From Lepidurus packardi (taxonomy: Eukaryota; Arthropoda; Branchiopoda; Notostraca; Triopsidae): a stretch of DNA of 64,000 bases. Below the pieces are notes generated by a model. The model worked only from the letters and a program-made list of their open reading frames with translations, was not told the origin of the DNA and ran no database searches. Position numbers and translations under genes: made by a program. Within the stretch, counting starts at the first letter, position 1. Each line of letters opens with the position of its first letter. Positions 10,687 to 63,587 of the stretch are shown here, piece after piece. Location: positions 3,022,375 to 3,086,374 of the forward strand of contig JAKZAN010000002.1 of NCBI GenBank assembly GCA_023053545.1, read 5' to 3'.

Positions 10687-13600
10687 TTAAACCGATAGGG
10701 AGACATAACTATTATAAAGCTGGATATTCCGCTTCAGGATGTCCGCGCAAGGACCCAAAACACGTTCGAATCGAGCCCGGTCTAATTTAACACACTTCAA
10801 GGGACTTTTGGCGACCACTGTAGCCGCACGAGGTCGATCAAGCAGCAACGCAATCTCGCCTAGAGTATTCAACACAAAACATTTCATTAGTCCTTGTAAT
10901 GCACAACTTCCTTTCATAAAGATGAAGTAAAAGCCTAAGACCCACGCCACGAGATAAAATAGGCCCAAATGTAAACAATAAATACGTTTTTAGCAGAAAT
11001 TTTAGCTGAAGCAGAATGTAAAGCTTGTTTCCTTGGAACAAGTAATTTTCTATTGTAGGAGGTTTAATAATGATGCTATTACTTATTATTGTTGACCTTA
11101 AGACTTCGTAATAATTCTAAACTTTTAACAATTACACAACCGTTATTTTTAGCTTATCAACCTTCGCAATGTGACACTACGTGATTGAAACGTAAGAATA
11201 CTTCATAAAGCTGACAAAATTCCGACGATTTTTGCTCTGAAAAGACTTAAGACTTGAAATTGTAGCTAATGTATACAATTTGTTTATAATGAATGTCGCA
11301 ACAATTAATATAATATTGTAGATACAGAATTTTAATTAAACCTTAGTCATTGTAAGAACTTTCATAGTAACAGTGTCGCAACAATAGAAATGATTTCATT
11401 ACACCTGAATAATACTGAAAACTTTAGACTTAACAGTAATACTAATACTAACACTAATAATAACAACCATTCGAAATAACTTAGCAAAAAGTCGACTAAC
11501 AATCGACTACAAAAAGAAACATCGATTGGAACGAAAATTCGACAAAAACCTACAGAAAAATCCTTGGAACTGGAAAATTATCTATAGAAGCGTTTTTCTA
11601 TCACTCTGATAGGCTAACACTAAAGCTTTTAGGTCTGTAAGAATTTCTACGAATTTCAACGAGCTCCTTTAAAGGTTTTCATAGTAATAGCATTAATACA
11701 CGTAACTGATTTACATTAAATACAATACTATAATAAAAACAAAACTAACCATAATAGAAACCATTCCACAATAAGGAAAATCGCCACAATTGTTATTGTT
11801 CTTATAATAACAACCGTCATAACAATTCTAAAGATAAGATTTCATTACCATTAACAAAGAATCGCAATATTAGATATCAATAAGAAAGAATATTCGACCA
11901 AACAAAAGTAAAGTCCATATGCTAAGAATAAGAGCTATAGAAACCCTTCTTATACTTTGATAGGCTAAAGATAAAACTTAAATTGCGTTCTTTTAGCAAA
12001 CTAATTGACCTATATTCCACAAACATTTTTATATCGTTTTCTGACTGTAAAGTATAGGTCTTACCAAAGTAATCAGAAGGCCCCAAATGGCCAACTTCGA
12101 CCGGAGGCTCATTATCTGAACTGCCTGCGCGTTGTTGCAACACTACCGCTGCTCCGCTGACTATAATGAAAAAGTCATGGCCAGGTTCACCCTGTCGGAC
12201 AATAGCTTCGCCTTCATCAAAGGAGGCTGGCTCCAAGGCATCTGCAACCGTCAGGCGTTCCCATTTTTCCAAGCTCTCCAAAATGGAAACTTTGGAGAGA
12301 AATTCCTCGTACATCTTCCTCTTGCGAATGATGGATCCCATCAAAATACGTCGGTAAGAATCGCGGTCCAAGCCCCATAACTTAACTTCGGTTTTGGCCC
12401 GAATCGTGGCTGCACGTGGCGTTCCATAGATCAATGCCAATTCGCCAAAACTTCCTCCAGCACTAATTGTGCTTACCATTTCCCCATTGACAAAAACCTA
12501 AACCAACAAAAAAAAGCATCCATAATTACAAACTTTCTCCCTCCAAACTTGCTCTCTTTTTTCCTTTCATTCGAGAGAAAACTCGTTTGAAAGGAGAGAA
12601 ATTGAAAAACTTCGATTTTTCTCCTTGTTTTCTTTCTTTTACCTCAACTTCACCCTGATCAATAACGTAGAAATTGTCCCCTTCATCCCCTTGTTGAATG
12701 ATAGTCTCGCCAGGGACGGCGGTGCAAGGAAACATGGCATCGAAGATATCTGAACGCTCTGATTCGTCCAAATGGTTGAAGAGAACGTTACAAGCAATAG
12801 CTTTGGCCAACGCTTCCATTGCGTTGTAGTCCTTCGGAACTACTTTCTTGACATATGAAGTAGCTTCTTCTTCTGTCATGGTTTCGCCGGAAATACCTCC
12901 TCGACGAGGACGCGCTGGTACTGCGCCGCCCGTCACCAAAGGCGATTCTTCTGTCTCTTCCGGCGACAGCGTGGCTTTTTGTTTAGCATCTTTGGCCACT
13001 TCCTGAAAAGGTGACGAAAAGAACAAAATCATAAAGTTTTTCTTTTTAGACATCATTAGAAGCGAATCATGTGTCAATAAAATCTATGCTTTCTGCTTTG
13101 GCTGTATAATTTCAAGTCAAACTCGATCTAAAATTGCTCATTCCGCAAGTTCGCTTCTCTATTTCTTTCTCAAGTAATTAGCTCATAATGAGAAACAAGA
13201 CACCCTTTGTCTAATAGGTTATCCACTTTATCGACGTTATGCTGTTAACGACAAGCTGCTGTTTCCGTGCACAAAATACGATGTTAAGGAAACGTTTCAT
13301 TTCTCTTTGACTGTACGTCTAATCTAACGACATTTCCTGGAAGTTAGGAGAGTTTCATCAATCTAATAAGTTAGCGTCGCGTCGGAATAATCCGGTAACT
13401 ATAAACATGCTCTTCAAATGTCAAATGTGTTTACCGCTGTTCAGTTTTATTCATTCATTTCTCTTTGAATTTTTCAAGAAGTATTCCAAAAGATAAGATA
13501 AAATCGCAGTTAGCGCATCATCAACTTGGGAAGGGGCGCTACTTCTAATCCTCGTGAGTTTTATCAAAGAGTACTGACATGACATTTTAGGTGTCAAGAA

Positions 13601-16600: not shown

Positions 16601-19600
16601 TTCAATACGACTTGCTATTCTAATAAAAAAAGGTCCTAGTTCCCTTGTTTTGTTCTCATTTAAACGTTCTAGCTTCGTTCTGAAGAAATGCATATTCATC
16701 TAGACTATAGGAACTTCCAAGAACGAAAAAGGGCAGTAGTTCTGTAACTGCACATTTAAGTACATGAAACATTCACTAACCCAAAGGGGGACGATAAGGA
16801 AAATATAGAAAAGAAAATCTATAAGGCTAATGTAACCGCAACGCGAAAAACGTGCAAGAGATTCTTGTTGTAGAAAATTGTATAAGATATCTTGCGGAGA
16901 CATTGAGTAAATAAAAAAAAAAGGTTACCAGGGGCACTGCAATGCGTTTCTATGGCGGAAATGTTTTCGGAAACACGAACACGCAGCCTAAAGTTAATAT
17001 ATAAAGTTTTGGCAACAATAACGGTTGATTGGAACCTCGATGATTTCGGTGAACTTTTTCATTGCCATGGTCATATTACATCCTCACAGAAACGTTTAAC
17101 AACCTTCTTATGGCGCTTCCCATGTTAAATCGATAGCGAAACGCCAGAGAGAATGAGTGATTCCGTTTATGTGATGGCCTCTTCACGTTCTTTTAACTAC
17201 TTTCGTTTTTTCCTTATAAGCGTGCGTGACCATTCACGGTAAAAGATCCATAATTGAAATCGTTATATATCGTTAATAACTTTATAAATCTTTTAGAAAT
17301 TAGAAAGTAATAGCTGAATTCCTTCCAAAAAAATTTCGTTTGTAAGCAGTTTAGACAAATCTAGAAACGCAGGTTTATGTTCATACAATCGATTATAATC
17401 ATGTTTGAACAAATACGTTTGCATAAAAGTTTACGTTTTGAACCATTAATTGGCCTTTTCACACAACGTTTTAGGAGCTTTACAAAGTTCTTGCTCATTA
17501 ATAATAAACCCAAAAAGCTGAAAGGTTTACTCGACAGCTATTGAACCTCTCATGCAACTAATATCGCTTATAGTCCAGCCTGTCAAGCTTTTACCACTGC
17601 TAGACCAGCCCACCACGCCCCTTTCATTTCTATTTTGCCCTAGAACAGACAACGCCTGAGCTGCTCCCCTCTCTCTCTCACTCCCTGATAATTTCTATTC
17701 AAGGAACGTCCATTGTCAGATGCAAATTCATTCAATAAAACTGCTAGCTCATGTGCCAAGATTTGTGCCTAGTCTCCAGGCAACACACGGTTAATAAAAA
17801 CCATCGCCAAGGCCAACCAGTACCGCACAGCATCCAACTAGAAAGATGCAAATGTGTACAAAAAACCGCTCCCTAATATGGCCATCAGGCTAAATTGCAG
17901 TTGAAACACTTAAAACGGGGTGTGGATGACCTTTCCAACATGGAAACCTACGAAAACGACGAAGGATACAATAGAAAAGAAAACAATGCTATCGACACAT
18001 CACACATCAAGGAAAATTAAAGTCATTCTTTCAACTGACACAAAAGCACCGATTTCTTTCTTTACACACGAAAGAGTGACAAATTAAGTAGCCCTTTTTT
18101 TCGCGCAGAACTATAACCTCAACTTTCCTTATCAACTTATCCAAAAAAATCCCCATAAACAAATCTCCCTTTTCCTGTCTTGTTCTTCAAGCCATGAGAT
18201 AAGTTCAAGAAACGCCACTCGCATGCATTCTATCTTGCTTTTTCGATTATGTTCTCTTTTCCAGAGTTCTTTCTCTTCCCCTGTGTCAAGTCTGTCTCAT
18301 ACTAGCACACATCCTTTGGAACCACTTTGCTTTGATCTATGAGACCCAGATTCTGCCAACCTCGACCGCTTCGAATAATCCATCTGTTTAACGACTAAAG
18401 GTAATCTAGGATAGTCAACCTTTTCTTTTTTCTTGTTTTCTTCTTCGCAAATGCTGGAAATGTTCGAAGCTCAGATCTACCTAAAGCTCAGATAGCATTT
18501 CAAATATCCTTAATGAGGTTTTATGTTGGTGTTTACCATTTGTAATGTATTATGTATACCTGACTTGGTGTAATATGCGATGTGGCAACGCTAGACACGG
18601 CATTTTTCTTATTCTTGTCAGAACTATGCGAGCTAGATGCATTTGATGTCTCGGATGATGGAACTGGGGAGCCCGCTTTGTTTTTCGACGTGTTTTTAGA
18701 CACTGAGCCTGACGAAGTTATCTCGATACTTTGCTTATTACCCATTTCGATAAACTTTTTCGTCCGTTTGCTAGCTTTTTACTTCTTCTGTTTAAACGAA
18801 GAGTTCACTTAGTTTGTTTCGCTCTAACTGTTTCTTTGATGTGTTTGTCCTAAGGGAAGTTTATGGCGCAGTCAACACAACGAACACAACTCGGACACCA
18901 AATATGAAGTTTTGAATGGAAGCTGGCTAGATGTGACCGTGTATGATAGAGGACGTATATGCAAGACGTTCGATTGAAAACTGGCAGTCGAATGGGAATC
19001 TTGCAGCTTTCCGGTTTATTTAACCTTTCGGGGAGGGCCGAGTCGTTATCGGTCAGGTGGCCTGTATACAGCCTTTTATCAGTGAAATTTAACTCCGATG
19101 TTTATCAGCAAAAAAAAAAAAATGAACGAGATTGCAACCAGTGTCTACAAAAGATTTCCTCAAGGCGGATGTTTTTGTAGTGTCTGTTAATTCCAATAAA
19201 AATGAACGTCAGATTTGATTTTCTACGCATTCATTTTGTTTCGCTGTTTTTTTTTGTTAGAAGAGGTTCTCTTTCGTTGAATATCGATAGTTAAGGCTGC
19301 TAATTGCCCAAGTGACTAGAGAGAAAAACATACCGGCGAATTTGGATGAAAAGGAAAAGCAGACGAGAGAAAGAGAGAGAGAGAAAGAGAAGAGGGGGGA
19401 GGGAGGCAAAGTGCTGGAGAGTTATTTTCAGATACAAGAAACCCCAATGAGGAAACAGGACTATGGAATGTTCATAAATAAAATAAGGTCCCAGCTCGTT
19501 CAACACGAATATGCCGAAGAAGCGATTTGTGCCAGCAGAACACAAGGAATAAAACTTCTCTGCAAATTGCGAAAGAATTTGCGTTTCTCGTTTCTCACGA

Positions 19601-20098
19601 GATAAGGGCCAAGAACTTTGTTTGTCAACAAGGCGATGAGCCAATTTTGTTTATCATCTTACGCTTAATCTAATTAGAAGAAAAACCATAATATAAATAT
19701 GTTCAAACAGTCCAGAAGTTTTGTCAGTTGAAATCTTACAAACCCAAATGTCCTATATAAGCTAAGTTCCTGGATTGTTTGTGGTAATATCGCCATCTTT
19801 ACTGATCAGTCCAAGCCTTAAAGGTAAAAGTTAAGATCAACAGTGTAGTTATTGTACTGTTGATCAAGTATTCTGTTGGGAGACTGGAGAAAGTAACAGA
19901 AATCAAAACAGCTGTGTATGAAATGCTACTTACTCGTTCCAATTTTTGGAAATATTCGCGGAGGAAAGACACGGGATTATCCGGTCGGCTAACACATAAT
20001 TGCACGATGCAGTCTTTGAGAATTTGCTGGATATTATGGCGCTGAACATAAGCTTCACATTCACGAAGGCTTTGCTCTTCATCCAAGTTGGCCGCCAT
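10687..20098 (-). CDS. PKA-R1 (PRKAR1): cAMP-dependent protein kinase type I regulatory subunit, 4 coding exons, 376 aa
   Basis: Exons: 20098-19934, 13002-12643, 12497-12065, 10859-10687 (1131 nt, phases 0/0/1). Residues 1-55 form the type I dimerization/docking domain (Cxx[16 protein letters not shown]), which binds A-kinase anchors. RRGGIS near residues 88-93 is the pseudosubstrate that occupies the catalytic cleft. The two cyclic-nucleotide-binding domains keep their phosphate-binding cassettes, [14 protein letters not shown] (about 192-205) and [14 protein letters not shown] (about 319-332), each with the essential Glu and Arg. The length matches mammalian RI-alpha (about 381 aa). The first intron is almost 7 kb and holds a candidate alternative first exon (18560-18745). 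The 5' end is divergent from the RhoGDI gene, about 0.7 kb between start codons. The product holds PKA inactive until cAMP binds. Confidence 0.95.
11041..12064 (-). other. PKA-R1: PKA-R1 intron 3 (part), AT-rich, no feature seen
   Basis: The intron between the last two coding exons runs 12064-10860. This AT-rich part has short runs of AAT and TAA trinucleotides (for example around 11440-11465). I see no coding or structured element. Confidence 0.6.
13003..18559 (-). other. PKA-R1: Large PKA-R1 intron (part), no gene recognised
   Basis: 5.5 kb of intron between the second coding exon and the alternative first exon. I looked for coding exons on both strands and found only short frames without family features, such as one at 14449-14679. 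A poly-C run lies near 15692-15701. Because the alternative first exon lies just upstream on the minus strand, its splicing and enhancer elements may sit here, but I cannot point to one. Confidence 0.5.
18560..18745 (-). CDS. PKA-R1 (alternative N terminus): Candidate alternative first coding exon of PKA-R1 with N-myristoylation signal
   Basis: A 186-nt open exon on the same strand as PKA-R1, inside its first intron. It begins MGNKQS and ends TPSQ immediately before a GTATAC donor in phase 0. The PKA-R1 second exon (13002) also begins in phase 0, so the two join cleanly as [11 protein letters not shown]. Gly2 with Ser6 fits the N-myristoyltransferase consensus. The remaining 60 residues are Ser/Lys/Asn-rich and probably disordered. 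The resulting isoform of about 383 aa would keep the pseudosubstrate and both cAMP domains but lose the dimerization/docking domain. Seen: the ORF, donor and phase. Inferred: the splicing and lipidation. It could also be a chance ORF. Confidence 0.55.
18746..19933 (-). other. PKA-R1: PKA-R1 intron 1 upstream part, with GA microsatellite
   Basis: Intronic sequence between the two alternative first exons. If the MGNKQS exon is used, its promoter should lie in the higher-coordinate half of this stretch. A purine-rich (GA)n tract occupies about 19360-19405. I see nothing else. Confidence 0.5.
19360..19405 (+). repeat. GA-rich microsatellite
   Basis: Nearly uninterrupted GAGA/GAAA purine tract within PKA-R1 intron 1, read directly from the sequence. 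Confidence 0.8.
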
Positions 20099-20529
20099 CT
20101 TTATACACTACTGGTCGGCCGAAATTGTTAAGTCTCTCTGGGCGGTCAGGGGGGGGGGCTGTGCTGTGCGATCTTTTCGGGGCTTAGAGGCAACGCCTAT
20201 TTCTCCCTTCAAGGGAAAAATGAACAACCAACTTGGCTTAAAGAAATCCGCGCGTTTAAGCAAACAATGTTTCAGAGAGGAAAGATGCTCGATAAATTTG
20301 AAGGGAACCGAAAAATTAAGTTTAATAGAAATGTTGTCTATTTATATCCGATAGCTAGCCTCTCGAATAAATTTCCCTACGGTATATTACAAGTCTGAAG
20401 TCAGACAGCGTATGCCATCTATTGACAAGGTACTCAAACCCTTGCTTAGTTTCTTGAGTAGATCAAGTTTGTTCAGTTGGAAGAAAGAAGGCTCGGCGTG
20501 GTTTCTTGGCAGTTATTGTATTTTAATCG

Positions 20530-20757
20530 GTAAGTTTTAAAACTGGTAAAATAGTATAGAGTGTGGGATCAGAAATTGAGTCTGATTAAGTGGGTTTAAA
20601 AAGAGAAACTTTTTGTTTGTGAGACTTAATTAAGGAATTTTGGGTGGAGGTAGGCAAACAAAATTGAGCGTTTGGTTTGTTATCAGTTTCTCAGTTCCGG
20701 CCCACTCGATAAGGTTGAACTCCCTTAAACTGACCATAGTTTGCCTCTCTGTTGTAG
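20530..20757 (+). other. ARHGDIA-like: Probable 5' UTR intron of RhoGDI
   Basis: A GTAAGT donor at 20530 and a pyrimidine-rich CTCTGTTGTAG acceptor ending at 20757 lie just ahead of the start codon at 20778. This leaves a 20-nt leader before the ATG. The ORF that begins upstream within this stretch reads through the acceptor but shows no homology, so I treat it as untranslated. Confidence 0.5.
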
Positions 20758-20777
20758 AGTTGTCGAGACTTTTGGAA

Positions 20778-21614
20778 ATGTCAGAAGAAAAAGAGCAAGA
20801 AACTGTGACCCCAGCAGAAGAGCAGGAAGAATTAGACGCCACTTATTGCCCTCCACCTCAGAAATCTTTGGATGAGATCTTAGCTACCGACCAAGAAGAT
20901 GAAAGTCTTCGCAAGTACAAAGAAGCGTTACTCGGTATTGCTACCTCCGCCAAGATTGTCGTAGGTAAGCGAACCTAAGTGACTCACCGTCGATCAATTA
21001 AGTCTTGTCTCCGCCTTCAGCGCTAATTACCTTTCGACTTAACATAGATCCTGCGGATGCCCGACATGTTTTGGTCCGTAGATTGGCTTTACTTAGTGAA
21101 GGCGCCCCTGTTATGGAATTGGACCTTACTGGTGATTTAAGCCAGCTCAAGAAACAAGTATTGCTTCCCGACATCATTCGTTTAAGTCTGACAGCTTTTA
21201 TCACGTTTTTCTCCCTTTTCTAGACGTTTACTATCAAAGAGGGTGTGTCCTATCGTATTCGCATTGATTTCCACGTCCAACATGAGATCGTCCATGGCTT
21301 AAAATACGTCCAAAAGACTTATCGGTCTGGAATCCAAGGTAGTTAAAGAAAGAAAAAAGTCCTGTTGAGGTTCTGTTTATAATTCTTTTTTTTTTTTGGT
21401 TTTGCAATTCGCAGTGGATAAAATGAGTCATATGGTAGGGAGCTACGCACCTAAACTGGAGCTCCAGTCCTACACTACTCCGTCTGAAGACTCTCCTTCG
21501 GGTCTTTTAGCCCGTGGCCACTACAATGTAACTTCCCTTTTCACAGACGACGACAAGAACGAGCATTTGAAATGGGAGTGGTCTTTTGAAATCAAGAAAG
21601 ATTGGTCCAAGTGA
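20778..21614 (+). CDS. ARHGDIA-like (RhoGDI): Rho GDP-dissociation inhibitor, 4 exons, 212 aa
   Basis: Exons: 20778-20964, 21021-21157, 21224-21338, 21415-21614 (639 nt). The first about 70 residues are acidic and hold the flexible N-terminal arm (LDEILATDQEDESLRKYKEALLG) that binds the switch regions of Rho GTPases. The rest is the immunoglobulin-like beta-sandwich that sequesters the geranylgeranyl tail. Family blocks include FTIKEGVSYRI, HEIVHGLKYVQKTY, DKMSHMVGSYAP, and the C-terminal HLKWEWSFEIKKDW. The length matches vertebrate RhoGDI (about 204 aa). The protein extracts Rho/Rac/Cdc42 from membranes and holds them soluble and GDP-bound. Start choice: MSEEKEQE is the first Met after a probable UTR splice acceptor. 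Convergent with ELAC2, 467 bp between stop codons. Confidence 0.96.
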
Positions 21615-22081: not shown

Positions 22082-25000
22082 TCAGATCGGGCCTGGCTTA
22101 CCGCCAGTAATAAGTTGGGTGTCTTTCAACTGCGCGTTTTGCGTCCGTAAGAGACGTTTAGCCATTTTGTGCTCCATTTCTTCGTAATGCTCGGCGAACA
22201 TGAGCTTCAACGTTGGCAGAAATAACGGCAGGCAGTTAAGATCACAAGGTCGAACCTAAAAAAAAATCACAGAGATAAGTTTTAATGATCAATTCTTGTA
22301 TAATGAGACGAACTAAAAATGTTACCGCCATGTTATCGAAAGCAATTCCCACGTTTCGGCCAAAGGCTTCCGAGAAAACGGGGACTTTGGCATAGCGCTG
22401 GCTGAAATGAGTGAGTAGCGTGAACTTGGCGCTCATTTTCTTGCCCATTTCAATGGCTTGTGAAGTCGTGCTGTGCGTTTTAAGTAAGGCTTCGGTTTCT
22501 AAACCGTCTTCCATGGTACTCTCATGAATAAGCAAATCGCAATCGCGACCTAAAAACAAATATACAAATTTAAACGTTACTAGAGGACAACTTGACAACT
22601 CAAAGGTACCAAAACCGTATATAGACATTTTGGCTGACTCTTGTACTTTAAATATTCTAAGAAGGATGAACTTAATCTTAAGTGTTGCTAAACTACCACT
22701 CAAGAGTTATGAACATGTAAAGTTTACGTCGTGAAGTAGCGAAAGAGACATGGCGTGGCTTACGAGCACTCGGTAACCATGGCCACTGTCTCTCTCGCCA
22801 TGTCACACAGCCACGTGACTCAAAAAAAAATGTTCTTAAAAAACTTTGCTATTATTTCGAGCGTGATGGACTGAAAACCTACCAATAGTGACAAGGTCTT
22901 CGCAGGGCATCGTATCACCGGAGTAAACCATTTTGAAGCCATTAGCGAAGTTTAAGGCTATTCCAAATGCGTTGGGACAGTGTTTGACAAAGGTGGTGAT
23001 CACACGGGCGTTCAAACAAGCATAAGTGGCCTCGCAAGCGTCTTTTTCTTGAGCTGCCAGCTTCGTATTTGGAACTAATTCGAAGTCTGAAAGCAGCGGT
23101 TCAAAATTACGGTGATATAACGAGAGCCAATGGGTTATCTGATGAGGAGCTATCAAGAGCAGCTTTTTAGCGTTAAAGGCTGGGCCACTGTGGGCTAAAG
23201 CTGCTTTTCGAGCTTGTAGTAAGCCAATAAGGCCGATATGATGATCGGCGTGGAGATGAGATACGTAAATGGCATCCAAATTCGACATCACGTGACTGAC
23301 TCTAGGTCCAAAGTAACGTACCAATTGCCCATAAGTGCCTTCCCCACAATCCAACAGCAAAAACCGGTCTAGACTGAAAAAATAAAAATCGCTAATTAAT
23401 AAACAAAAATAGTAATTGTAGGTTTAAAAAGGCGGAAATGATAAAAATAAAGTAATTTTTGAACAACGCATTTAGAGATTGCGAGAATAATTCGACGTTT
23501 TAGCGCAATGAAGGCTTATCGCTTTGGCTTAGGTGGCTGAGACTTACCTATGTTCCACTAAGATGGCGCTAGTATTCCTTGTTTTGTTCGGAATACAAGA
23601 GCCCGTGCCCATGAAGATAATCCGCGGGTATTCTCTCTCATCTGAAGGTTTTACGTCTTTCAAATCTTGCTGAAGCCTTTCCAGCGCCTCAGAAAAGCCT
23701 GAAACGGCTCTGGATTCTTCCACGTATTGTTTCGGGTTTAATCCGAACATAGCAGATCTGGAACGCAAATGTAGAATTATAAAATGACTTGCTTTTATAG
23801 TCTTTTACCTGTCAAGGCCCAACTTGGGACGCAAATGATAATTTAGTAACGTTTCGCCAGAGATAAATTTTACATCCAAGTGACTAGTACGGGGAACGGT
23901 TTCACCCAACATTGGAAAGATTTGCGGATGCAGCTCATGGAGCTTATATTGGACTCTATGGACTGCCTCACTACCTAAGCCCCGCCCACATTGGTTCGTC
24001 CCATGATCGTCTACGCTAGATTCGCCCAAAAAGAGATGAATGGTGGAATCAGGAAATTTTGCCATCCAAGATTGGTAAATTGGGGTTTGGACTATGGCTG
24101 CCGGTGTGAAATGGGCTACAATTTCAGCTTCTTGATTGTTACTATCTGGGGAACTCGACTGGTACTTTGTTAATACCGGGTTTGAGCTTAAAGGATCCAA
24201 AAACTCCTCTGAAGGGCAGTCCACCACTACAAAATAAAAGAAAAACTGACTTCAATGGATTAAGAACGTTAGAATTTTGTCATTTTTTTTTTACCAATGA
24301 AAAGAGGGCCAGGATCGTTGGGCGAACACACTTCTGATGATCTGATTAGTTCGCCTGAAGGTAAATTGATATCTTGTCCGTTTTTTAGCAATCCCAGCAA
24401 TGGTCCGGCTGGTATGTTCTTTTCAACGCACTTTTCAAACAATAGCATGCCTGGTTTGGGCTGAATCTTGCAAACGTACGCAATACTGACGTCAGCGGAC
24501 GCAAAAGGCACGCCTCCATTGCTTTGAGTGTCTAATTTAGCTTTCTTTGGGTTTTTCTTCTCGTTGGCGTAGTAATCAACTTCATCTCCCGAGTCGGAAG
24601 ACGACTGTTGCAGTTCTGGGCTCGTTTTTGAAGTCATTGGCTTCCACAATGGGACGTACGTCACGGTCATAACAGTATCTTCGAACCTGGAATCGTTAGC
24701 GGCATTTACGGCACTGATTTCGAGATCTTTGAGTATGATAAACCGTCTGGCAGACTCAAAGAGGCTTAACTAAAAAGACACTTGTAAGGTTTTTCTAAGC
24801 AGAAACAGAGTAATTTAAATCTAATGTACTATTCGTGGAGCACCATGAAGGTGGATATGGGGAACTCCTACGTCTTGGATTGTCAAGGCAACACCGGGTA
24901 AGCCACCCATGTTCTTCCAACTGGTGTGGGTGATGAAAATATGCTCCAACCTGGCTAGTTTCATCTTGTGTTCATGGGCAAGACGTTGAGCACCTTCTCC

Positions 25001-25438
25001 GCAATTGAATAAATATCTTAAAAAATTATAAATTGGTTAATTAACCTAGGAACGTTTTAAACGTGTTCAAAATCACCTGGACTGGTCTGTGAAAACGTAC
25101 AAAGAACGAGGAGCTCCATGTGCACCACTTCCCAGAACTTGCAAAGTTATGGTACCTGGAATATACTTGGAAACTTGCTGTTTCTTGGACTGTCTTTTAG
25201 CCTGTAACTCTCCCACGTGTTTTGATTCTTTGGGCATTTTCAGAAGGAAGTCATTTAATTTAGTTTTCTTATATTCAGCTAAAGAAGCCTGAATTGTAGA
25301 AAACAACTGCCTGGGGACTGGAGGAATGGCGAAATCGAAATTTTTTATGGGGTTTAGGAGGATAAATCTAAAAAATTTAAGTTTGCAGTTAAGGTTAAGG
25401 GTCATGAAGAGGACAGATAACTGAATTTTATTACACAT
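22082..25438 (-). CDS. ELAC2: Long-form tRNase Z (zinc phosphodiesterase ELAC2), 8 exons, about 846 aa
   Basis: Exons: 25438-25077, 25016-24830, 24769-24295, 24226-23809, 23757-23548, 23373-22883, 22549-22326, 22255-22082 (2541 nt, phases agree). This enzyme cuts the 3' trailer from pre-tRNA. Long forms are two fused metallo-beta-lactamase halves. The N-terminal half keeps [11 protein letters not shown] but has HTSWKNM where the zinc motif would be, as expected for the inactive half. The C-terminal half has [12 protein letters not shown], the zinc motif HLHADH (near 590-595), [18 protein letters not shown] and LTHFSQRY, so it should be catalytic. The tail is Glu/Lys-rich. Start: the first Met gives a basic, Ser/Leu-rich N terminus that could be a mitochondrial presequence; an internal Met (KMPKESKH) could give a nuclear form. 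An upstream first exon spliced at the TTTTTTAG near 25369 is an alternative. The 5' end is therefore less certain. Confidence 0.93.
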
Positions 25439-26590
25439 TAACTATACTACCTGAGGTGCCAAAGGAGTTTACAAAAAAGTAAAGAGTAAAGTTATTTCAA
25501 AGAAAAAGTAAATTATCTTGTAGAGTACGGCACAGAAATATTAACCTGTGGTTATTGCCACGTAAAAAGTCAACTGTGTCGAATTCGCTTTTCTTTCGGT
25601 GAATTTTGCTGGCACATAATTCAACTAAACAAGCATGGTTGGCTCGACGCTAATGTCGACTCAAGTACATGGAGGTGGGGCTTAAAAGTCCAGTCTCGGA
25701 CTAACGAAAGAATGTTTTTCCTCTTTAGCAGAAATTGATTTCCTTTGGCTTCAAAATATGCTATAGCATATTAAGCATATAGCATATAGCATAAGCATAT
25801 AGCATATAGCTAATAAGCTATAGCTTCATCCATTTAATTTGTAAGGGTTTACCAACGCAATTGCTGTATGAACTGTAAACCAGTTTGCAGCCTATATCTC
25901 AATGTATAAACCAGCATTTCGTTCTAAAGTGTTAACGAGATTAGCTTACGAAGTTTAAACACTCTTGTCCAGATTTACTAAGTGCATGACGTACTTCGTA
26001 TACCCGGAAAAGCAAAACTAATTGACCTTGTCATATGTTCACTTTTACCATTTATGCTAACAAGCACCTTTTCCTTTTCAATACACATTCCTATCTAGAC
26101 GACACTTCGTAAGTTTGCAGTGTAGTTACGAAATCAACTTTAGCGTCTGTAGCAAAAAAGTGGAAATTTTACAATAGCACTATATGGGAAATTGTATCAA
26201 GTAAGTATTAATTAATATTGATATCGTAATGGAAACTATCTAGTATATCCGTTTATTTCCGAATCATTTAGATTTAGATTACATAATTAAATTTAACTTC
26301 TACTTCTTACACTTGCCACTTTGGCGTTGAAATCGTTAAATAGTATCAAAACTCAACCTAGGACAGTGTGTCTACCTCCTGCGCTCTTTTCATTGTTGCC
26401 AACTTGTCAGTGTATTTACGTCTACGTCAGCATGTGTTTGAGAATTTTAAGTCGCTAGAAAAGGAAGTACAATTAATTAGATCATAATTACGAAAGTTAG
26501 AATACGTGTATGAAACTTCCTCAAATCATGTAAACTTTTGTTTGTGCAGGAAAACGGATTGCCAACGTTCTTAAGAAACGTTCTCGAATC
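25439..26590. other. Divergent intergenic region between ELAC2 and QSOX
   Basis: AT-rich, with an AGCATAT simple repeat (25757-25825). No coding exon is supportable. It should contain both promoters; ELAC2 may also have an upstream exon here. Confidence 0.5.
25757..25825 (+). repeat. AGCATAT/AGCTATA simple-sequence tract
   Basis: About ten imperfect units of 7 nt (AGCATAT, sometimes AGCATA or AGCTATA) read directly from the sequence, between ELAC2 and QSOX. The tract is close to self-complementary and could form hairpins. Confidence 0.85.
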
Positions 26591-28984
26591 ATGGCCAGTG
26601 TTAAAACGATATTATTTTGCCTTCCAACATTACCAATCTTGTTTTGCTTAATCACTCCACAATCCTCAGCGTTATCATTGTCTTTGGGTCACGTCGAAAT
26701 TAATTTCGCGTCCCTTTATAACGAGTCAGACAAAATCGTCTTGTTAAATTCCACAAATTTCAAATCGACCATCACAAATAAGCAGAATGCTTGGTTCGTC
26801 GAGTTTTATTCTAGCTGGTGCGGCCATTGCATCAATTTCGCTCCTACATGGAAGGATTTAGCCAAAGATGTATATGGTAAATCATTTTTAAATACCGTAA
26901 ATCTTTTAAACCGCCTGAAATGACTTAACTAACTCTTCACATGCTAGTAATTTAATGAACAGTTCAGGTGTGTATAATTAACAAATAAAGAAAAATTGTA
27001 TAAAAAGGAAAAAATCCCCAGTTCCAGAACCTTTAAAAAATCCAAATTATATAATTACCCTTTCATATGTGCCTGGTTAAAAAGAAATCACAAAAAAAAT
27101 CCTAAAAAAATGGATCCAAAAAGCTTCTAAAAATCTTCAAACGCTCTAGACTCTATTTACAGACTAAACAAAAAGTTCCCAAGCCTCGTAAACGTCCAAA
27201 AATAACGTAGTTAATCCTTCATGTATTCATACTTAATCAGAAAATGAAGTGAAAATAGCAAGAAAAAATTGAACGAAATCTCTTGAGTTTAAAATGGTTT
27301 CTACTCTTTACACATAGGTTGGAAGAACGTTATCCAAGTAGCAGCTATAGACTGCGCATTAGAAGAAAACAACTCAATTTGCCGCGATTATGAAGTCATG
27401 GCTTATCCTTCGTTGAAATTCTTCCCTCCTTACGTCAATGACACATTTTTGGGTGTTTTGTGGTCAGGACCTAAGCCTAAGACAAAAGAAGGCTTAATGG
27501 AGGGCATGGTCGATTTCATGGAAGAAAATGTGACGAGCATTCTCCAACCATTAGACGAATTAGATGATTTGGAAGATTTATGGGCGAAGTTTGGAACAGA
27601 TAATTTACTACTCATCTTTGAAGAGCCGGCTAGCGGGTATTGGTCCAGAGAAGCCATTCTGGACTTATCAGCGAGCATCAATGTACCGCCTATACGGCGG
27701 GTGAGTTCCCATCACGAAAAGCTTGTAAAAACCTTCCAGGTGCCCAAATTCCCATCACTTGTCCTTGCCCGGCGCAATGGACGTCATCAAATCTTTCCTC
27801 TCGAGTCCCCCGATCGTTCTAGCCTCGAACACGTGATCCGAGAAGTTCTAAACCAAGAAAATTCCCTGGAGGAGCATAATTTGATCATGAGTGACTCCCC
27901 AAAAGTGTTGAAAGCATCAGAAATCCCACATTCTAATCCCCAGCGTAAGCTTCACGACACTGTTTTTATGTCTGACCTCGAAAAAGCCATTCACTATTCC
28001 CTAACACATGAAGTAGCCATGCATAAGGTTCTTATTGGCGCCAAATTGGAAGCATTGGTAAATTACGTCGCAATTTTGAAGAAATACTTCCCAGCCCGCT
28101 CACCGTTGCAAAGATTCTTTAACCAGCTCTTAAATTGGTTAGAGCAAAATCCTGATGGCGTTACGGGCAAAGAGTACAAGACTTTCGTTGCAGAATTGAT
28201 TGAAAAGCATTTGAAGGATTGGCCAAAGGAGTTGAGCACCTGGCGAGGTTGCAAAGGATCCCAACCTCAGTTTAGAGGCTACCCGTGCGCCCTCTGGAGC
28301 TTATTCCACACGCTAACGGTAGAAGGAGATTTGGCGCCGGATCCCTTGGAGGTTTTGCAGGGAATAAAAGGTTATGTAGCCACGTTTTTCGGTTGTGCCG
28401 AATGTGCGCATCACTTTCTTGCCATGGCCGAGGAAGACTTGAATTCCGTGACTACTTATGAGGAATCCGTGCTCTGGTTATGGCAAGCTCATAATAAAGC
28501 GAATAAAAGACTAGCGGGAGAACCTAGCGAGGATCTCGAGTTCCCGAAAATTGAATTCCCGTCGCCGCAAAGCTGCACGACTTGCCGCACGACGAGCGGG
28601 CAGTTTGATCGACAGGAAGTGGTCCATTTCTTAAGGACCATGTATGGGCCGAATATTGACTGGACAGGCGTGGATAACACAGAGGAGTTCTACAGGACAA
28701 TCTGGAAGAATAAGCGGTACAATAAGAATAAATTTGGACAGTTGGACCCCAAGGCTGTGACAAAAAACTGGGACACCAAGCAACGCTTTTTTTACCCCGA
28801 AGAGCAAGACAGCAAACGGAGCGGGTTTTGGTTCGGCGGAGCGTTTTCCGGTTTAGATATTAGCTTGTGCATTGTGCTATACGTGGTTTCATGTGTAGTA
28901 CTGATTGCAGTATTTTCCAAAATTATTTTCAGGAGAAAGTACCGCAGGAAGACGTACGCATTTGATCTGTTTGGTAAAGTTTAA
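26591..28984 (+). CDS. QSOX1-like: Quiescin sulfhydryl oxidase, 2 exons, 650 aa
   Basis: Exons 26591-26876 and 27318-28984 (1953 nt, phase 1). It makes disulfides in secretory proteins, passing electrons through FAD to oxygen. The N terminus is a signal peptide (about 1-28). The thioredoxin domain has WCGHC (Cys 77 and 80), followed by a second redox-inactive thioredoxin fold and a helical region. The Erv/ALR FAD-binding domain keeps RGYPCALWSLFHTL, the redox pair CAEC (near 455-458), the heme/FAD-contact HHF and WLWQAHNKAN, and a distal CTTC (near 515-518). A hydrophobic segment near 603-625 followed by RRKYRRKT predicts a type I membrane protein of the Golgi or cell surface. The second exon is unusually long (1667 nt) for this window. 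Divergent from ELAC2. Confidence 0.96.
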
Positions 28985-55581: not shown

Positions 55582-58500
55582 TTATATCTTTTTTAGGCAA
55601 GGTTGACACAGGTATAGTAAATCTTCTAGATCATCAGGCAACAAATCTAAAAGCTTTAAATGAGGCTGCACCTTATTGGCACAGTAAGCATGATGCCACG
55701 TCCCGCATTCACTACAAGCAACCCAATTGTCTACACCAAACTCACTAGTAGGAGCATTTCTTTGCAAGCATAAATAACAGAATTGAGCAACCGTACTTCT
55801 CAGGACAGAGCCAGGATCTGCAAACCCATACTTTTCATAAACATCAGCTCCTTTGCTATTGTACGGTTTCCGAGTTGAATAAAATTCTCTTTGGGGTATG
55901 AGCCTGGAATTAGGACCAACTTTTATAACAGACTGGAATGTCTTTTGAATGATGGCTTCATCAGGCCTTTTGCCTATCATAGCTACACTGTGCAGAGCAG
56001 AATCCATTTCTAAAAGCTGCTGATAAGTAAGACCTCGTTGAAGCGACCTTGCAACACAGGCCATGTTGTCCGTGATTCGTTTTTCTAATGCCGAACGGGT
56101 TTCTCTTCCCTTGGCTAGTCTCTTGTTTGGACTATTATAACTTTCCTTACAATCTACAATAGCTGCATTTTTAACGTGGGAGTGCCGCAAATGGTCAGGC
56201 AAATCGGGTACAACTTTGTGGATATGTTTGCACACATACCAGTTTTCATAAAAATCGTAGCAATCGCAATTAAAAACATGTCTGCAAGCTCCGCAATAAC
56301 CGCATTTATTAATACAAGCGCAAAGTGTGTCAGAAAACCTAGTGACGGTGTAGTACCTATCCTCCGACTGACTAGAATTCACTGTCCAGCATTTGTTTTC
56401 CTCTAAAACTGTTACATCTTCGTCCTTAATTTCCCTCGATTCCTTATGTCTCCTGTTAGTTTCGATGATGGTATTGGTACTTAGGCCTCTTTCGGTCAAC
56501 ATGGATTCTTTATGTTCCCTAATTTCTACATGATCATGCATAATCTCAAGTAAACGGTCAAGTCTTCTGTTGAACTTTCCATCCAAAAATACGTACTTCA
56601 AATCCCGGTGAAAAGACTCTACTACCATATTAGTTCTCACTGGCAAATTGTGACAGTTGAAACCCGCCCACTCATTGACTCGGGGCGCATAGTAGTCAAG
56701 AAAATACTTCGCAAAAAGAGGAAGATGTTCTTCCGCGTAGGTTATAAAACACGTAAGCTTATTCGCAAATTTACTTTCGTCTCTCTCGCGACTCACCACC
56801 CTAAGTAAGCTAAAAATTTGACAGGTTATAACCTGAGAATCTTCTTCATGACTAGTGACGGAATCGCGAAGCTGTTCCAGTCTTTTCTTCCAAGCCCTTT
56901 CCACATGCCAAATGCAAATTCTCCTCGTAGTAGATGAAGTGTCAAAGACATCTTTCCAAGCTAGCCAAAACTGATCAGCCATATCGCTCATAAACTCCGT
57001 TGTTCTAATTTCACCGACTTTTTCTTTAAGTTTCATAAAAAAGAGACGATATACTTCCCTATGTTCCCTGTCACTTATTAGAAAAGCAACAGGATATCCA
57101 GCCCGAGCTTTATTCAAAACCATAACCGTTGTCAAGACAAACTGGTACTGATTAACCTGATACGTGCTGTCTATGCAAATACACTGGCTGCCGTACTCAA
57201 GTAATGCTTTCATTTGCGGTTCATACATGATGCCAAGCGCAAAGTTGGCCACCTGCAATTGACTTTCTTCGTCTATAATGCCCTGGTTCTTATAAAAAAA
57301 TACTGGATTATCTAGCCTCACTGCCATCTCTTCAACCCACAAATCAACGCTTTCGTGATCTACAGAGTGTTTCCGGAAGGGATTTGGAATTTTGTTTTCG
57401 GCATTATGAAGATCCTTCATAGTAATAGCATTATCACGACAAGGAGGCTCATCTAAATTCTCTCTCAAAATGCTTTGTATGATTTTACGTTTGGAGATAC
57501 CGACAGTAAGTTTCTGTGCTATTACCTCTTGGGTTTCTTTGTGCAGACGGCATCTACCAGCAAGACGATCATGAGGCACATGTGACCGACAGAACGTTAC
57601 CTCACAATTACCTGACAAATGACTGATGCGACAAGTGATAAAACCAATACAAGACACTCCTGTACGACACGAGCCTAGACGTTTGAGGGCACGTTTACCC
57701 ATGCTACGATTTTTGTAAGAAAAGGACCGATTACACATATAAGTCGTCGTAGTGAAGCTTGTGTGACGACGAGCTCCCCTTCGGCTAACGAAAGAAACTC
57801 CGTCAGCTTTTTCTAACTCTGTTTTCCAGAGTTCAAAAGTATTTCTGTCATGAAATGTGCTGCTTTCAATTTTACAATGGAAGCTATGCTTAATCCTAAC
57901 ATGTGCAACGTATTCTACCAGCTTATTCACTGCTAAGCCACAATACCAACAAATTATCCGTTTAGTGTTCTGTTTTACTGTTCGTGAATCAAATTTTCGA
58001 TCACCCGAATCGCTATCTTCGGAAAATATGACAGCACTGTCACTGGCGTCTTGTTCGGAGTCCTGGGATTTCGTTTCCTTACTATCATCGGATTCAGCCC
58101 TGCTTAATAGTGGCTCAACTTCTTCTTCTATCTCAAGTTCTTCTGCTATATCAGGTACTGGGTCGGACTGCGAAGAACCTGACTTTTCTTCAGGAAGTAA
58201 TGAGACAGAGACTATTCTCTCGTTCGAAGTTTTACTGCTAACAGGACCTTTAATTTCTGTTTTTAAAGAACTATGTACCACCTTAATATGACGGTCAAGC
58301 GTAAACTTCCTAGCAAACCTTTTTCCACACTTACTGCAAACATTCTTTGCTTCTTTAAGCATGTTGCATCTTGCCAAACGTACGTGACGCTCTAAGTTAG
58401 ATACCCTCGTGAACTCGGCTTTGCATTTTTTGCACCTTAACTCAGCTTGATTCTGTTGTTGTTCAATTTGAGAATCAACAGAACATGTGAGAATATCACT

Positions 58501-59646
58501 GACTGACCTACGTTTAGGCAAACTAGAATCTCCTTTACGTTTTGTTTCGGTATTCCTTTCTTTACTGTTGGGATTCTCGAAATCACTGTCCGACTCTTGC
58601 TTTATTTCTCCAACAGGTCTAGCAACGACCAGATCAATAACGCTAACTTCATCTGACTTATTTGCTGTTTTACTTTTTGTCCTCGACAATTTAGCACCTT
58701 TGCGACTAGCTGCAATTTTGAAACTGCGATCTGCAAACTGACCAGAATACGGACTAGAACTGACCACCTTTGGGCAAAGGGGTACAAAATGTTTCGGCTG
58801 CCAACTACACGCAAGAACTGACCGCCCTTCTTTCTTCTGCAAATGTGCTTCCACGTTTCCACCACACCATAAAATTCGGAGAATTTCTGGGCTGTTGCAA
58901 CCAATAGGGACAAAATTCATATTGAAATGCAAGGCAGGGTGATGCGTACTACTTGAGGGAACATCGACAACTGGATAAACTGACTCTACGGTCCTATGAC
59001 AAACATTGGCCAAGGCAGCGAAAGACACTAATGACGCGTATTGCCCTGACTTTGCCTGCTCCATCGCATAAATAACTATAGTCTTTTGCGCGTTCCCGAT
59101 ATCAGTGTTTGGGAACTCCAGACCAGGAAACAGAAAGCGCGTCATATAAATGCCAGTAAAATTCACCATGTTAGCAATTTGGTTGTCACTGACATAACCA
59201 AGACCTGGATCTGAATAAAGCTGACTATTTGTCATTAATTCAACGACAATTCGACAACGAATCTCATCGGCATGATCTTCATTACCAAACAATATCAGCG
59301 AAGCTGAATTATAAAAGCAATTCCCATTTCCTTGACTTTTCAAAGCAGTAAATCCATCACGGAAGCGACTTGGAATGATTTCACAAGCAGATTCATCATT
59401 ACCAACATAGCACAGAGATTCTGGCAGTGCCAAAATAGTTGGCAGTTCAATTCCTCTAAACTCTTCCCTACACTCCAAACACAATGGCTCGAAACTACTC
59501 AAGTTTTCTTGACTAATCAAGATTTTTTCGAGAGAAATATTAGAAAACGCAGCAGCAGGTAAATCTGCTGTTTTTCGCAAATTTCCTAGACATTCCCTAA
59601 ATCTCTGAAGCCTCCCAATCCCTCTGAAGCCTAAAACAGAAACCAT
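55582..59646 (-). mobile_element. Intact OTU / C2H2 / MULE transposase / SWIM / PHD mosaic ORF, 1354 aa
   Basis: One uninterrupted frame, no introns. Residues about 95-290 form an OTU-type cysteine protease domain (GNGNCFYNS, Cys 110; late His in KHFVPL, about 286). The usual Asp before GNC is Asn. Two C2H2 fingers follow (405-427, 437-458), then an acidic linker and a Cys/His cluster (CRTGVSC...CRSH.PH). The MULE transposase core (about 820-1000) has CIDSTYQVNQ, MSDMADQFWLAW, a CIWHVERAWKKRL block and NMVVESFHRDLK, supplying the D, D and E of the catalytic triad. A SWIM finger (about 1109-1143, CDC...CKHIH) and a C-terminal PHD-like finger (about 1290-1354, CYLC...CSECGTWHHAYC...CQPC) finish it. 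Seen: motifs and order. Known: MULEs with OTU and SWIM modules occur in eukaryotes. Inferred: an autonomous or recently active Mutator-like element, or a domesticated gene. Confidence 0.88.
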
Positions 59647-60013
59647 TTTTGTCTACTTTTAATGTCTTAGACTCAAGACAGCAAGCTAAAGCGGGAAAAA
59701 AAGAAGCGAAAAGGAGTGAAAACAAAACAAACAATGGAAGAAAAACCAAGCAAACATGCAGAAAAAGAGCAAATAATGAAGGAGAAATAAGAAAACAACG
59801 TACCCGACGTAACAAGGGAAGAAAGCGTGACACAAGAATAATGCTGTTGAAGCAAGAATGTTGAAGTAACAATGTTCGCAAGCTTTGGAAGTCGCAAGCA
59901 AAGTGAGTCATGGATACCGGGATGACACTCAAGTTGGGACCAGCACCACCGCGCCGCAGGGAGTTTGGAGAGAAAGACAAACATGAAAATCCCATGGTAG
60001 AAGAAAAAATTTG

Positions 60014-61400: not shown

Positions 61401-61433
61401 CAACACTGTTCCGAAACGACGGGCAGTTGCGAA

Positions 61434-63587
61434 ATGCAACCGTCAAGTCATGAACTTAAGCCTTATTTTGAACAGTTACTGCATCAAGGCGAAAGTCACC
61501 CGTCACATGGACCATCGACAGTGCCTTGTTTACAAACCGTGACAAGTCTTAAGCTTGCTTGCGAGCAGGGCTGTGCCACCTTGTCTGATAGCTACTTCCC
61601 ACATACCGAGGATACCAACGCGGAGGTATTTGTTGAGCTCGAATTCGAACATAGTGAAGTAGATGACGATGATTCGGACGAGTGTGACGAGTATAGTGAA
61701 CTTTGCTTTCGAGAAGTTTTTGGACAAACTCCTGTTGGAGAATGTGAAATTGAAGATGAAAGTGACAGTGAAAAACCATCTGAAGAACAGTTGGTGACCT
61801 TAAAACTTGCCAACTGGGCAAGAGAATGTGGTGTACCTCGTACACATGTAAGCAAGTTACTTAAGACACTGCGAGAAGTTCCAAGCTTGACATTTTTGCC
61901 TGCCGATTATAGATCTTTATTGAAAACAATCCGCCGAGTTGAGATTGCAGAGCTCGCGCCAGGGAAGTATTACGATTTTAAGCTGATACCTGGATTGACT
62001 CGCGCTATGAAGATGCTTCCGTCTTCTGATATTCCAGCGACGCTTCTCCTTCATGTCAACGTGGATGGTCTACCGATGGCGAAAAGCTCAAGTGACTGTT
62101 TTTGGCCCATTTTAGTGAAGGTTTTCAATGTACCTATCTTAAAACCTTTCGTATGTGGCTTGTACTCAGGACAAGGAAAGTCCAGTAATTTTAATGATTT
62201 TCTTACACCTTTCGTCGAGGAAGCATGCCTTTTGGAAAGGGAGGGGTTTTGCTTTGAGGGTTTAAAAATAAGGGTTAAAGTCCACGCTTTTATTTGTGAC
62301 GCTCCCGCGTCTGCCTTGGTTAAAGGGGTCACGTCACATGGAGGTTATTCCTCATGTCAAAAATGTATCACAACAGGGGTGTACATAAAAGAGAAGCCAG
62401 TTAATGGGAGGGTTATACTTGAAGATCTTAACGCGCAAAAAAGGACAGATGCCTCGTTCCGTGCGCGTTTAGAGGCAGATCCAAGTAAACCACATCACAA
62501 TCGCGACATTAATGTAGTGGAGGACTTAAGCACGGACATGATTTTAGGTTTCCCACGTGAATCCCTTCACTTGCTTGACTTAGGGATTACGAAAAGGTTA
62601 CTTTGTTTTTTAACACGAAGCGTTAGTAGTCCAGCTAACCTTCCCAAGAAATCCATCAATGAACTTACGGCTCGCCTAAAGTCTATACAACCTCATGTTC
62701 CAGTAGAATTTTCGAGAAAACCCAGAGGACTAGATGAGTTGAAGCGCTGGAAAGCGACAGAGTTTAGAATGTTTAGAGATTACATAGCTGTGGCTGTCTT
62801 TAAAGATGTTATCCCCGAAAATCTCTACCGCCATTTTTTGTCCTTCTCGGTCGGTGTTAGATTACTTTCGCGTCACGAGACCAGCCGCATGCCAGGAACT
62901 TTCGCTTTTTGTCGAGATTTGTTTAAAAAATTCATAGAAGAATCTTCAGTGCTTTACGGCAGGCATGTTTTGTCTTACAACAGTCACGGCCTGATTCATC
63001 TTGTAGATGACGTGGAAAATTTTGGCCCCATTCCCCTTTGGAGTGGATACTGGGCCGAGAATTATCTACAAGTGATAAAAAATTTAGTAAAGACCAAAAT
63101 GTCTATGCTTGAGCAAGTTGTTAAACGACTGCATGAGCTTGAAAGTCACGGTGTCAAGAAAATAGTGCCAGTTAAAAGTCCAGTCCTTCTACAAATGCAT
63201 TCCAGTGGGCCTGTATGGCCACCGGGTAACCAAGGACAACAGTTCGGGAAGGTTGTATGCGATCGTTTTGAGTTGCACCGAAAAGAACCGAATAATGTCG
63301 TATTCTTGAAAGACACATCAGTTTTCTGCGTAGAAAATATTATAAAAAGACCCGACGAAAGAATTTTTATTATTGGAAGGAATTTTACTTCGTGTAGTGA
63401 TTGCTTTGAATTTCCTGTTCCCTCTCAAAGCATCGATACCTTGTTGGTCAGTCATTTATCTAATCAATTGAAATGCTACCCACTCGAAGCTGTTAAATGG
63501 AAAGGATTCAAACTTCCTTTTTTCGGACGAGACGGTTCGTGGATTGTTTCTCCACTTTCATATGAGTTTAGGGTTTTTTTTTCATAA
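61434..63587 (+). mobile_element. Intact TNP2-like (CACTA/EnSpm-type) transposase ORF, 717 aa
   Basis: A single open frame without introns. The N terminus has an acidic region (DDDDSDECDEYSE). The core carries LLLHVNVDGLPMAKSSSDCFWPILVKV, VCGLYSGQGKSSNFNDFL, a Cys/His segment (SHGGYSSCQKC), PRESLHLLDLGITKRLL and a C-terminal HGLIHLVDDVENFGPIPLWSGYWAEN block. This layout is familiar from TNP2-like transposases of CACTA/EnSpm elements found in cnidarians, aphids and other invertebrates. Catalytic acidic residues are plausible in DGLP and LDLG. Identification is by block pattern only, so the superfamily is likely rather than certain. No terminal repeats were found in the 400 nt that follow. Confidence 0.75.

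Follow-up and report, generated by a model that had tools for sequence, protein, structure and literature searches.

A candidate alternative first exon in a PKA type I regulatory subunit gene would exchange the dimerization/docking domain for a tail with a predicted N-myristoylation signal

Introduction

The specificity of PKA in animals is usually attributed to AKAPs, which bind the dimerization/docking (D/D) domain of the regulatory (R) subunit. Transcripts of Drosophila Pka-R1 with other N termini were reportedly described by Kalderon and Rubin in 1988.

In excerpts of two reviews, C. elegans is described as having one R gene, kin-2, which gives rise to isoforms with or without the D/D domain (Pastok 2013, via PMC9692727 and PMC3771449); one C. 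elegans review raises the possibility, in the portion available, that the D/D-less KIN-2 isoforms have other, unknown functions (PMC9692727/PMC3771449). For decapods, extracts of Head et al. (2025; PMC12608923) report that in some RI and RII sequences a D/D domain could not be identified, and recommend exploring whether these dimerize or bind AKAPs. A second decapod RI, PKA-RID1, is listed there for five species, with records that include XP_053629376.1, XP_069981583.1, PX409860 and PX409861; RI1 and RID1 of C. maenas are 85.2% identical, a value that a shared core joined to a different N terminus would give. PKA-RID1 is probably the D/D-less form, encoded by the same gene as RI1.

Parts of PMC6152992 describe PKAr1 of Toxoplasma gondii, an R subunit with apparently no docking domain, by which PKAc1 is brought to the cell periphery, probably through acylation at G2, C5 and C7. 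The first 15 residues of PKAr1 are enough to place GFP there, an effect that G2A severely impairs. PKA-R of Plasmodium, as described in an extract of PMC4850634, has no dimerization bundle and ran as a monomer. In mammals, smAKAP (C2orf88), a small protein that is both myristoylated and palmitoylated, places RI at the plasma membrane (PMC13025221, in part).

Here we describe a PKA type I regulatory subunit (RI) gene, PKA-R1, and a candidate alternative first exon, beginning MGNKQS, within its first intron. A sequence-only reading of the same DNA had proposed that this exon replaces the D/D domain with a predicted myristoylated tail.

Materials and methods

The window, i.e. the whole 64,000-nucleotide stretch of DNA that was analysed, lies within a contig of 13.5 Mb; the eukaryote assembly to which this belongs totals 108.6 Mb. 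The frame scan used as its background 178,866 bases of mostly non-coding sequence, taken from the window and from twenty 10-kb stretches; long frames were masked, and both strands were scanned. Peptide composition was compared with 1,446 open 62-residue segments in all six frames, coding or not, drawn from twenty 10-kb stretches and from the window without 10.6–20.2 kb, and with simulated frames. Codon-usage and synonymous-only scores were trained on eight long open frames of the same genome.

Results

The PKA-R1 gene and its surroundings

PKA-R1 lies on the minus strand, from 20098 to 10687, and its coding exons E1 to E4 (Table 1) encode a canonical product of 376 residues. The D/D domain of this isoform is recognised by Pfam (RIIa, PF02197, 57.3 bits, in the open reading frame 19799–20107), and both RI disulphide cysteines are presumably present in E1. 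The phase-0 acceptor of E2 reads TTTTCAG/GAA at 13002. Assignment to type I is supported by the RRGGI pseudosubstrate, which has the RRx[G/A] form given as the RI motif in an extract of PMC12608923, by tandem cAMP-binding domains (Pfam cNMP_binding), and by an RI (4din_B) being the nearest solved relative.

Table 1. Features of the PKA-R1 locus, in coordinates of the window
Feature	Position	Strand	Description
E1, canonical first coding exon	19934..20098	-	RI D/D domain, ends FQKLER; donor CGA/GTAAGT, phase 0
Putative 5′ leader/promoter region of the alternative exon	18746..19227	-	482 ATG-free bases
Candidate alternative first coding exon	18560..18745	-	MGNKQS...TPSQ, 62 codons, 186 bases; donor CAG/GTATAC, phase 0
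E2	12643..13002	-	EVAKDAKQK... linker, pseudosubstrate, start of cAMP-binding domain A; Pfam cNMP_binding
RRGGI type-I pseudosubstrate	12892..12906	-	In E2, common to both isoforms
E3	12065..12497	-	Remainder of cAMP domain A and most of B
E4	10687..10859	-	End of cAMP domain B, ...NSYVSLSV, stop TAA

Within the genome, no match other than PKA-R1 had RI-like identity. Contig C4 carries another R gene, with RIIa and cAMP-domain matches; it is probably of type II, a type that was not found among the Nematoda sampled according to a portion of PMC12608923. Other R-like matches were mainly on small contigs; many contain in-frame TAA or TAG and look foreign. Matches to PKA-R and kinase on many small contigs of the assembly (G000), for example C111, C118, C159, C161, C201 and C289, have in-frame TAA/TAG and few TGA, a pattern of stops as in some ciliate nuclear codes, and the assembly may thus include ciliate contigs. 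Numerous pieces of COX1 on contigs of the same assembly, some of chromosome size and some smaller (C1, C2, C4, C5, C6, C21 and C38), contain TGA codons and look like nuclear insertions of mitochondrial DNA. One such COI-like insertion, translated with code 5, contains a single stop and has an arthropod-like appearance, whereas a second did not read sensibly. COX1 frames free of stops on C52, C214 and C43 are perhaps bacterial.

Within the window, the first part of a Rho GDI gene (20634–20978, plus strand) stands head to head with the PKA-R1 D/D exon, such that the promoter region may be common to both. Further away are a β-lactamase-fold gene (22836–25441, minus strand; Pfam match on 22836–23423, with outer limits set by eye), which looks like a long-form RNase Z, and a QSOX sulfhydryl oxidase gene (26534–28984, plus strand; Pfam match on 27293–28984, with outer limits set in the same way). 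A 1,356-codon open frame (55585–59652, minus strand), in which a MULE transposase domain is accompanied by a C2H2 zinc finger, is probably a DNA transposon-derived gene; a 728-codon open frame (61401–63584, plus strand) has no Pfam match at E 0.001.

Structure of the alternative first exon and the predicted isoform

The positions of the D/D exon and of E2 place the alternative exon inside intron 1 (6,932 bases, a figure that includes the first base of exon 2), on the strand of the gene. The limits given for the MGNKQS exon in the sequence-only reading (18745–18560) proved exact and its peptide length of 62 residues correct, the 186-base ATG frame being open and followed by GT. The proposed fit of a phase-0 donor to exon 2 also holds, with phase 0 common to the alternative donor, the D/D-exon donor and the E2 acceptor. 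That the swap would remove the D/D domain agrees with the Pfam results: the alternative tail has no match, the canonical exon carries RIIa.

The predicted isoform has 383 residues, and retains RRGGI and both cAMP domains without the D/D domain; its core aligns to RI-beta (4din_B) over residues 70–383, i.e. to the end, with an E value of 2.2e-150. L, F, W, Y, C and R are all absent from the tail, in which 24 of 62 residues are S or T; K/R number seven and D/E three, and the net charge is about +4. Searching the genome with the exon peptide gave a single match. Antisense to the exon, an 82-codon open frame occupies 18564–18812 on the plus strand.

Evidence for and against a genuine exon

To judge from the DNA, the alternative first exon is very probably real and is also, with a confidence only a little lower, likely to be spliced to exon 2. 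When intron 1 was scanned for ATG frames that run for 30 codons or more into a phase-0 donor scoring 4 bits or higher, it was the only one found. In the background, eight frames reached both 62 codons and a donor score of 5 bits, and none of them has the myristoylation motif; as the thresholds were fixed at the observed values, these figures are post hoc.

The eight background frames correspond to 0.155 expected per strand of 6.93 kb before the motif is required, which lends some support to the view that the MGNKQS frame arose by chance in intron 1 and was never an exon. The donor, the weakest in the gene (5.1 vs 6.4–7.1 bits with a generic matrix), also favours chance, as does codon usage being uninformative. 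The full codon-usage score of the exon is 2.9, a value not exceeded by 44% of 295 held-out coding segments and equalled or surpassed by 33 of 215 open non-coding frames; its synonymous score is -0.89, which 94 of the 215 open non-coding frames reach. Within the 186 bases, the MGNKQS frame is outscored by two others (4.2 and 4.5). Codon usage was set aside as coding evidence, since it separates coding from non-coding too poorly to decide 62 codons. The GC content by codon position (0.34, 0.55, 0.44) is unlike that of exons 1 to 3, perhaps owing to the richness in serine. No relatives were recovered by tblastn from genome_contigs (194 pattern matches) or viral_contigs (20); both collections are the wrong place to look for animal DNA, and this result, which might otherwise favour a chance frame, is therefore no evidence against conservation.

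We nonetheless regard a chance frame as improbable, given several features that are partly independent and all point the same way. In addition to the exon being the sole candidate in the intron and to the motif itself, the alternative ATG has G at both -3 and +4, and the nearest ATG upstream starts 485 bases before it; a gap of at least 482 bases precedes 6 of 5,880 background ATGs (0.10%). Composition argues in the same direction. None of the 1,446 sample segments is free of L, F, W, Y and C, and one has a single such residue; the other open segments on the minus strand of intron 1 (163, overlapping) each have at least 15. None of 3,000 simulated frames of local composition lacks all five (the minimum is two), nor does any of 3,000 with the dinucleotide content of the exon, although this set of residues was picked after the peptide was seen and the ranks are therefore stronger than a planned test would yield. 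The TOP-IDP disorder score of the tail is reached by 22 of the 1,446 segments, and by 8 and 24 of the 3,000 frames simulated with local composition and with the exon's own dinucleotides, respectively. GC content is 0.44 in the exon, 0.40 upstream and 0.35 downstream. Hydropathy was discarded as coding evidence, being unremarkable: it is equal or lower in 108 of the 1,446 segments, and in 476 (local composition) and 584 (own dinucleotides) of the 3,000 simulated frames.

The exon could alternatively be part of a small nested gene that lies within intron 1 and is not spliced to exon 2. A 6.9-kb intron is roomy enough for this, and DNA alone does not force the join to 13002. Against such a gene, none of the ten frames submitted to Pfam, out of 18 minus-strand frames of at least 50 codons between 18470 and 13451, gave a match at E 0.1, no other open segment on the minus strand of intron 1 has a similar composition, the phase fits exon 2, and alternative RI N termini are known elsewhere; we hold a nested gene to be very improbable.

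As regards the start of the transcript, a promoter of its own within intron 1 most likely drives the alternative first exon. This proposal draws mainly on the ATG-free leader, as no TATA match was found upstream of the alternative ATG and the initiator TCAKTY has one exact match (at 19125, 380 bases upstream) and four looser ones. The ATG of the D/D exon is likewise preceded by an ATG-free stretch, of 316 bases. No splice acceptor above 3 bits lies between 19200 and 18740. A cassette exon between the D/D exon and exon 2 is accordingly not favoured, and the opening of the reading frame only at 18778, after a stop, also counts against it; an upstream non-coding exon spliced to the leader near the ATG would lack a good acceptor, and an own promoter is preferred.

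The N-myristoylation signal

N-myristoylation signals have S, T, A, G, C or N at position 6 and no P at position 7, and a basic residue is often found after S6. The MGxxxS signal claimed for the exon was upheld, in that MGNKQSI has a PROSITE-like start (Met-Gly, a permitted residue at position 3, S6, and no P at 7), found at 39 of 4,210 background ATGs. Counting against it, positions 7 and 8 hold I and E and no basic residue. The genome contains an NMT gene (PF01233, 142.1 bits, G000:C6:9851898-9852248). It also contains a PKA catalytic gene, whose exon 1, MGNAATTKKGDPSEN, is followed by a GTGAGT donor and has an MGN start, of the MGNxxxxK form by which PKA-C1 is defined in an extract of PMC12608923.

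There is no cysteine for palmitoylation among the 62 tail residues. With no cysteine close by and about +4 of net charge, one myristate generally anchors only weakly. The sequence-only reading had the isoform ‘directly membrane-attached’, which was an overstatement for a tail of this composition, and for Toxoplasma PKAr1 a portion of PMC6152992 reports that mutation of either G2 or both cysteines abrogates peripheral localisation.

These properties bear on the possibility that the exon is genuine and a D/D-less isoform is made, but that its N terminus provides no lipid anchor, or none of practical use. Such an RI would be monomeric and soluble; it would buffer cAMP or free catalytic subunit, and its serine-rich tail would serve as a disordered linker or as a platform for phosphorylation. 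The lack of cysteine, the S/T content and the modest excess of K/R over D/E fit this description, as do published D/D-less RI isoforms for which excerpts state no lipid signal (PMC12608923 and the C. elegans kin-2 reviews). It is less easily reconciled with a start of a kind seen at so few background ATGs, with the presence of NMT, and with the same kind of start on the cognate catalytic subunit, and we judge a soluble RI unlikely.

Discussion

The reading that we favour, and consider fairly probable, is that a genuine alternative first exon yields a myristoylated, monomeric, D/D-less RI, which is brought to membranes by its own lipid tail without an AKAP. The scheme that we infer, as to promoter, transcript, myristoylation, monomeric state and membrane location, begins with transcription from within intron 1 and splicing to exon 2, which would give the 383-residue isoform. 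Glycine 2 would most likely be myristoylated during translation by the animal's N-myristoyltransferase. With the D/D domain lost, the isoform should be a monomer and should not be bound by AKAPs through the usual helix; with the pseudosubstrate retained, one catalytic subunit should still bind via RRGGI, to be released upon cAMP binding. The lipid tail, rather than an AKAP, would bring the isoform to membranes, with the serine-rich and probably disordered tail as a tether. Because the catalytic subunit also has an MGN start, a 1:1 R:C complex would carry two myristates, which may supply useful membrane affinity since the tail alone offers one lipid, no cysteine and modest positive charge; the two myristates of the pair are thus the more likely source of that affinity. 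A rise in cAMP would free the kinase at the membrane, where the tethered RI would recapture it.

The novelty claimed for this isoform stands in part. Among the matches listed in the open-access literature, we found no animal PKA R subunit described as myristoylated, and the sole acylated PKA R subunit among those matches was apicomplexan; nor was a myristoylated animal R subunit mentioned in the extracts of PMC1769443, PMC5282578, PMC12851583, PMC3784516, PMC13410359 and PMC11542917. D/D-less RI, by contrast, has already been reported from C. elegans and decapods, as excerpts of PMC12608923, PMC9692727 and PMC3771449 indicate, which also bears out the earlier remark that alternative RI N termini occur in some invertebrates. 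The new part would therefore be the N-myristoylation signal on an animal RI: each component has precedent, and it is their combination in one animal RI isoform that was not found.

If the favoured reading is correct, an R subunit without a D/D domain but with its own lipid signal places the kinase AKAP-free, and a mode of placement proposed for Toxoplasma becomes a first-exon choice in an animal. The lipid signal could also explain the role of D/D-less RI isoforms in worms and crustaceans. As a more speculative extension, which we advance tentatively and consider somewhat doubtful, invertebrate D/D-less RI isoforms in general might be lipid-anchored R subunits, with the choice of first exon deciding whether a single RI gene supplies dimers anchored by AKAPs or myristoylated monomers that need no AKAP, the latter in a doubly lipidated 1:1 holoenzyme at membranes.

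Set beside the known systems, the predicted isoform shares with the decapod D/D-less RI (probably PKA-RID1) an RI core without a D/D domain, but in the decapod study, so far as its excerpted text goes, G2 and myristoylation are discussed for catalytic subunits only (PMC12608923). The C. elegans kin-2 gene is similar in providing both D/D-containing and D/D-less isoforms from a single R gene; it differs in that the available parts of the reviews mention no lipid signal for KIN-2, the myristoylated isoform there being the catalytic N′1 (PMC9692727, PMC3771449). Toxoplasma PKAr1 is also an apparently D/D-less R subunit with an N-terminal acylation signal of its own, whereas it is apicomplexan, relies on dual acylation involving cysteines 5 and 7, and is not described as an alternative isoform in the portion of the paper covered here (PMC6152992). 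Of the G2, C5 and C7 of the Toxoplasma type, the tail described here has G2 and neither cysteine, and since the cysteines are absent we do not class it as an acylated R subunit of that type; the predicted isoform may work in a like manner despite this. As to smAKAP, a lipid signal likewise puts RI at the membrane, but there, in the excerpt of PMC13025221, the signal is carried by a separate protein that binds the D/D domain of RI, whereas here it would be fused to RI itself, with the D/D domain gone.
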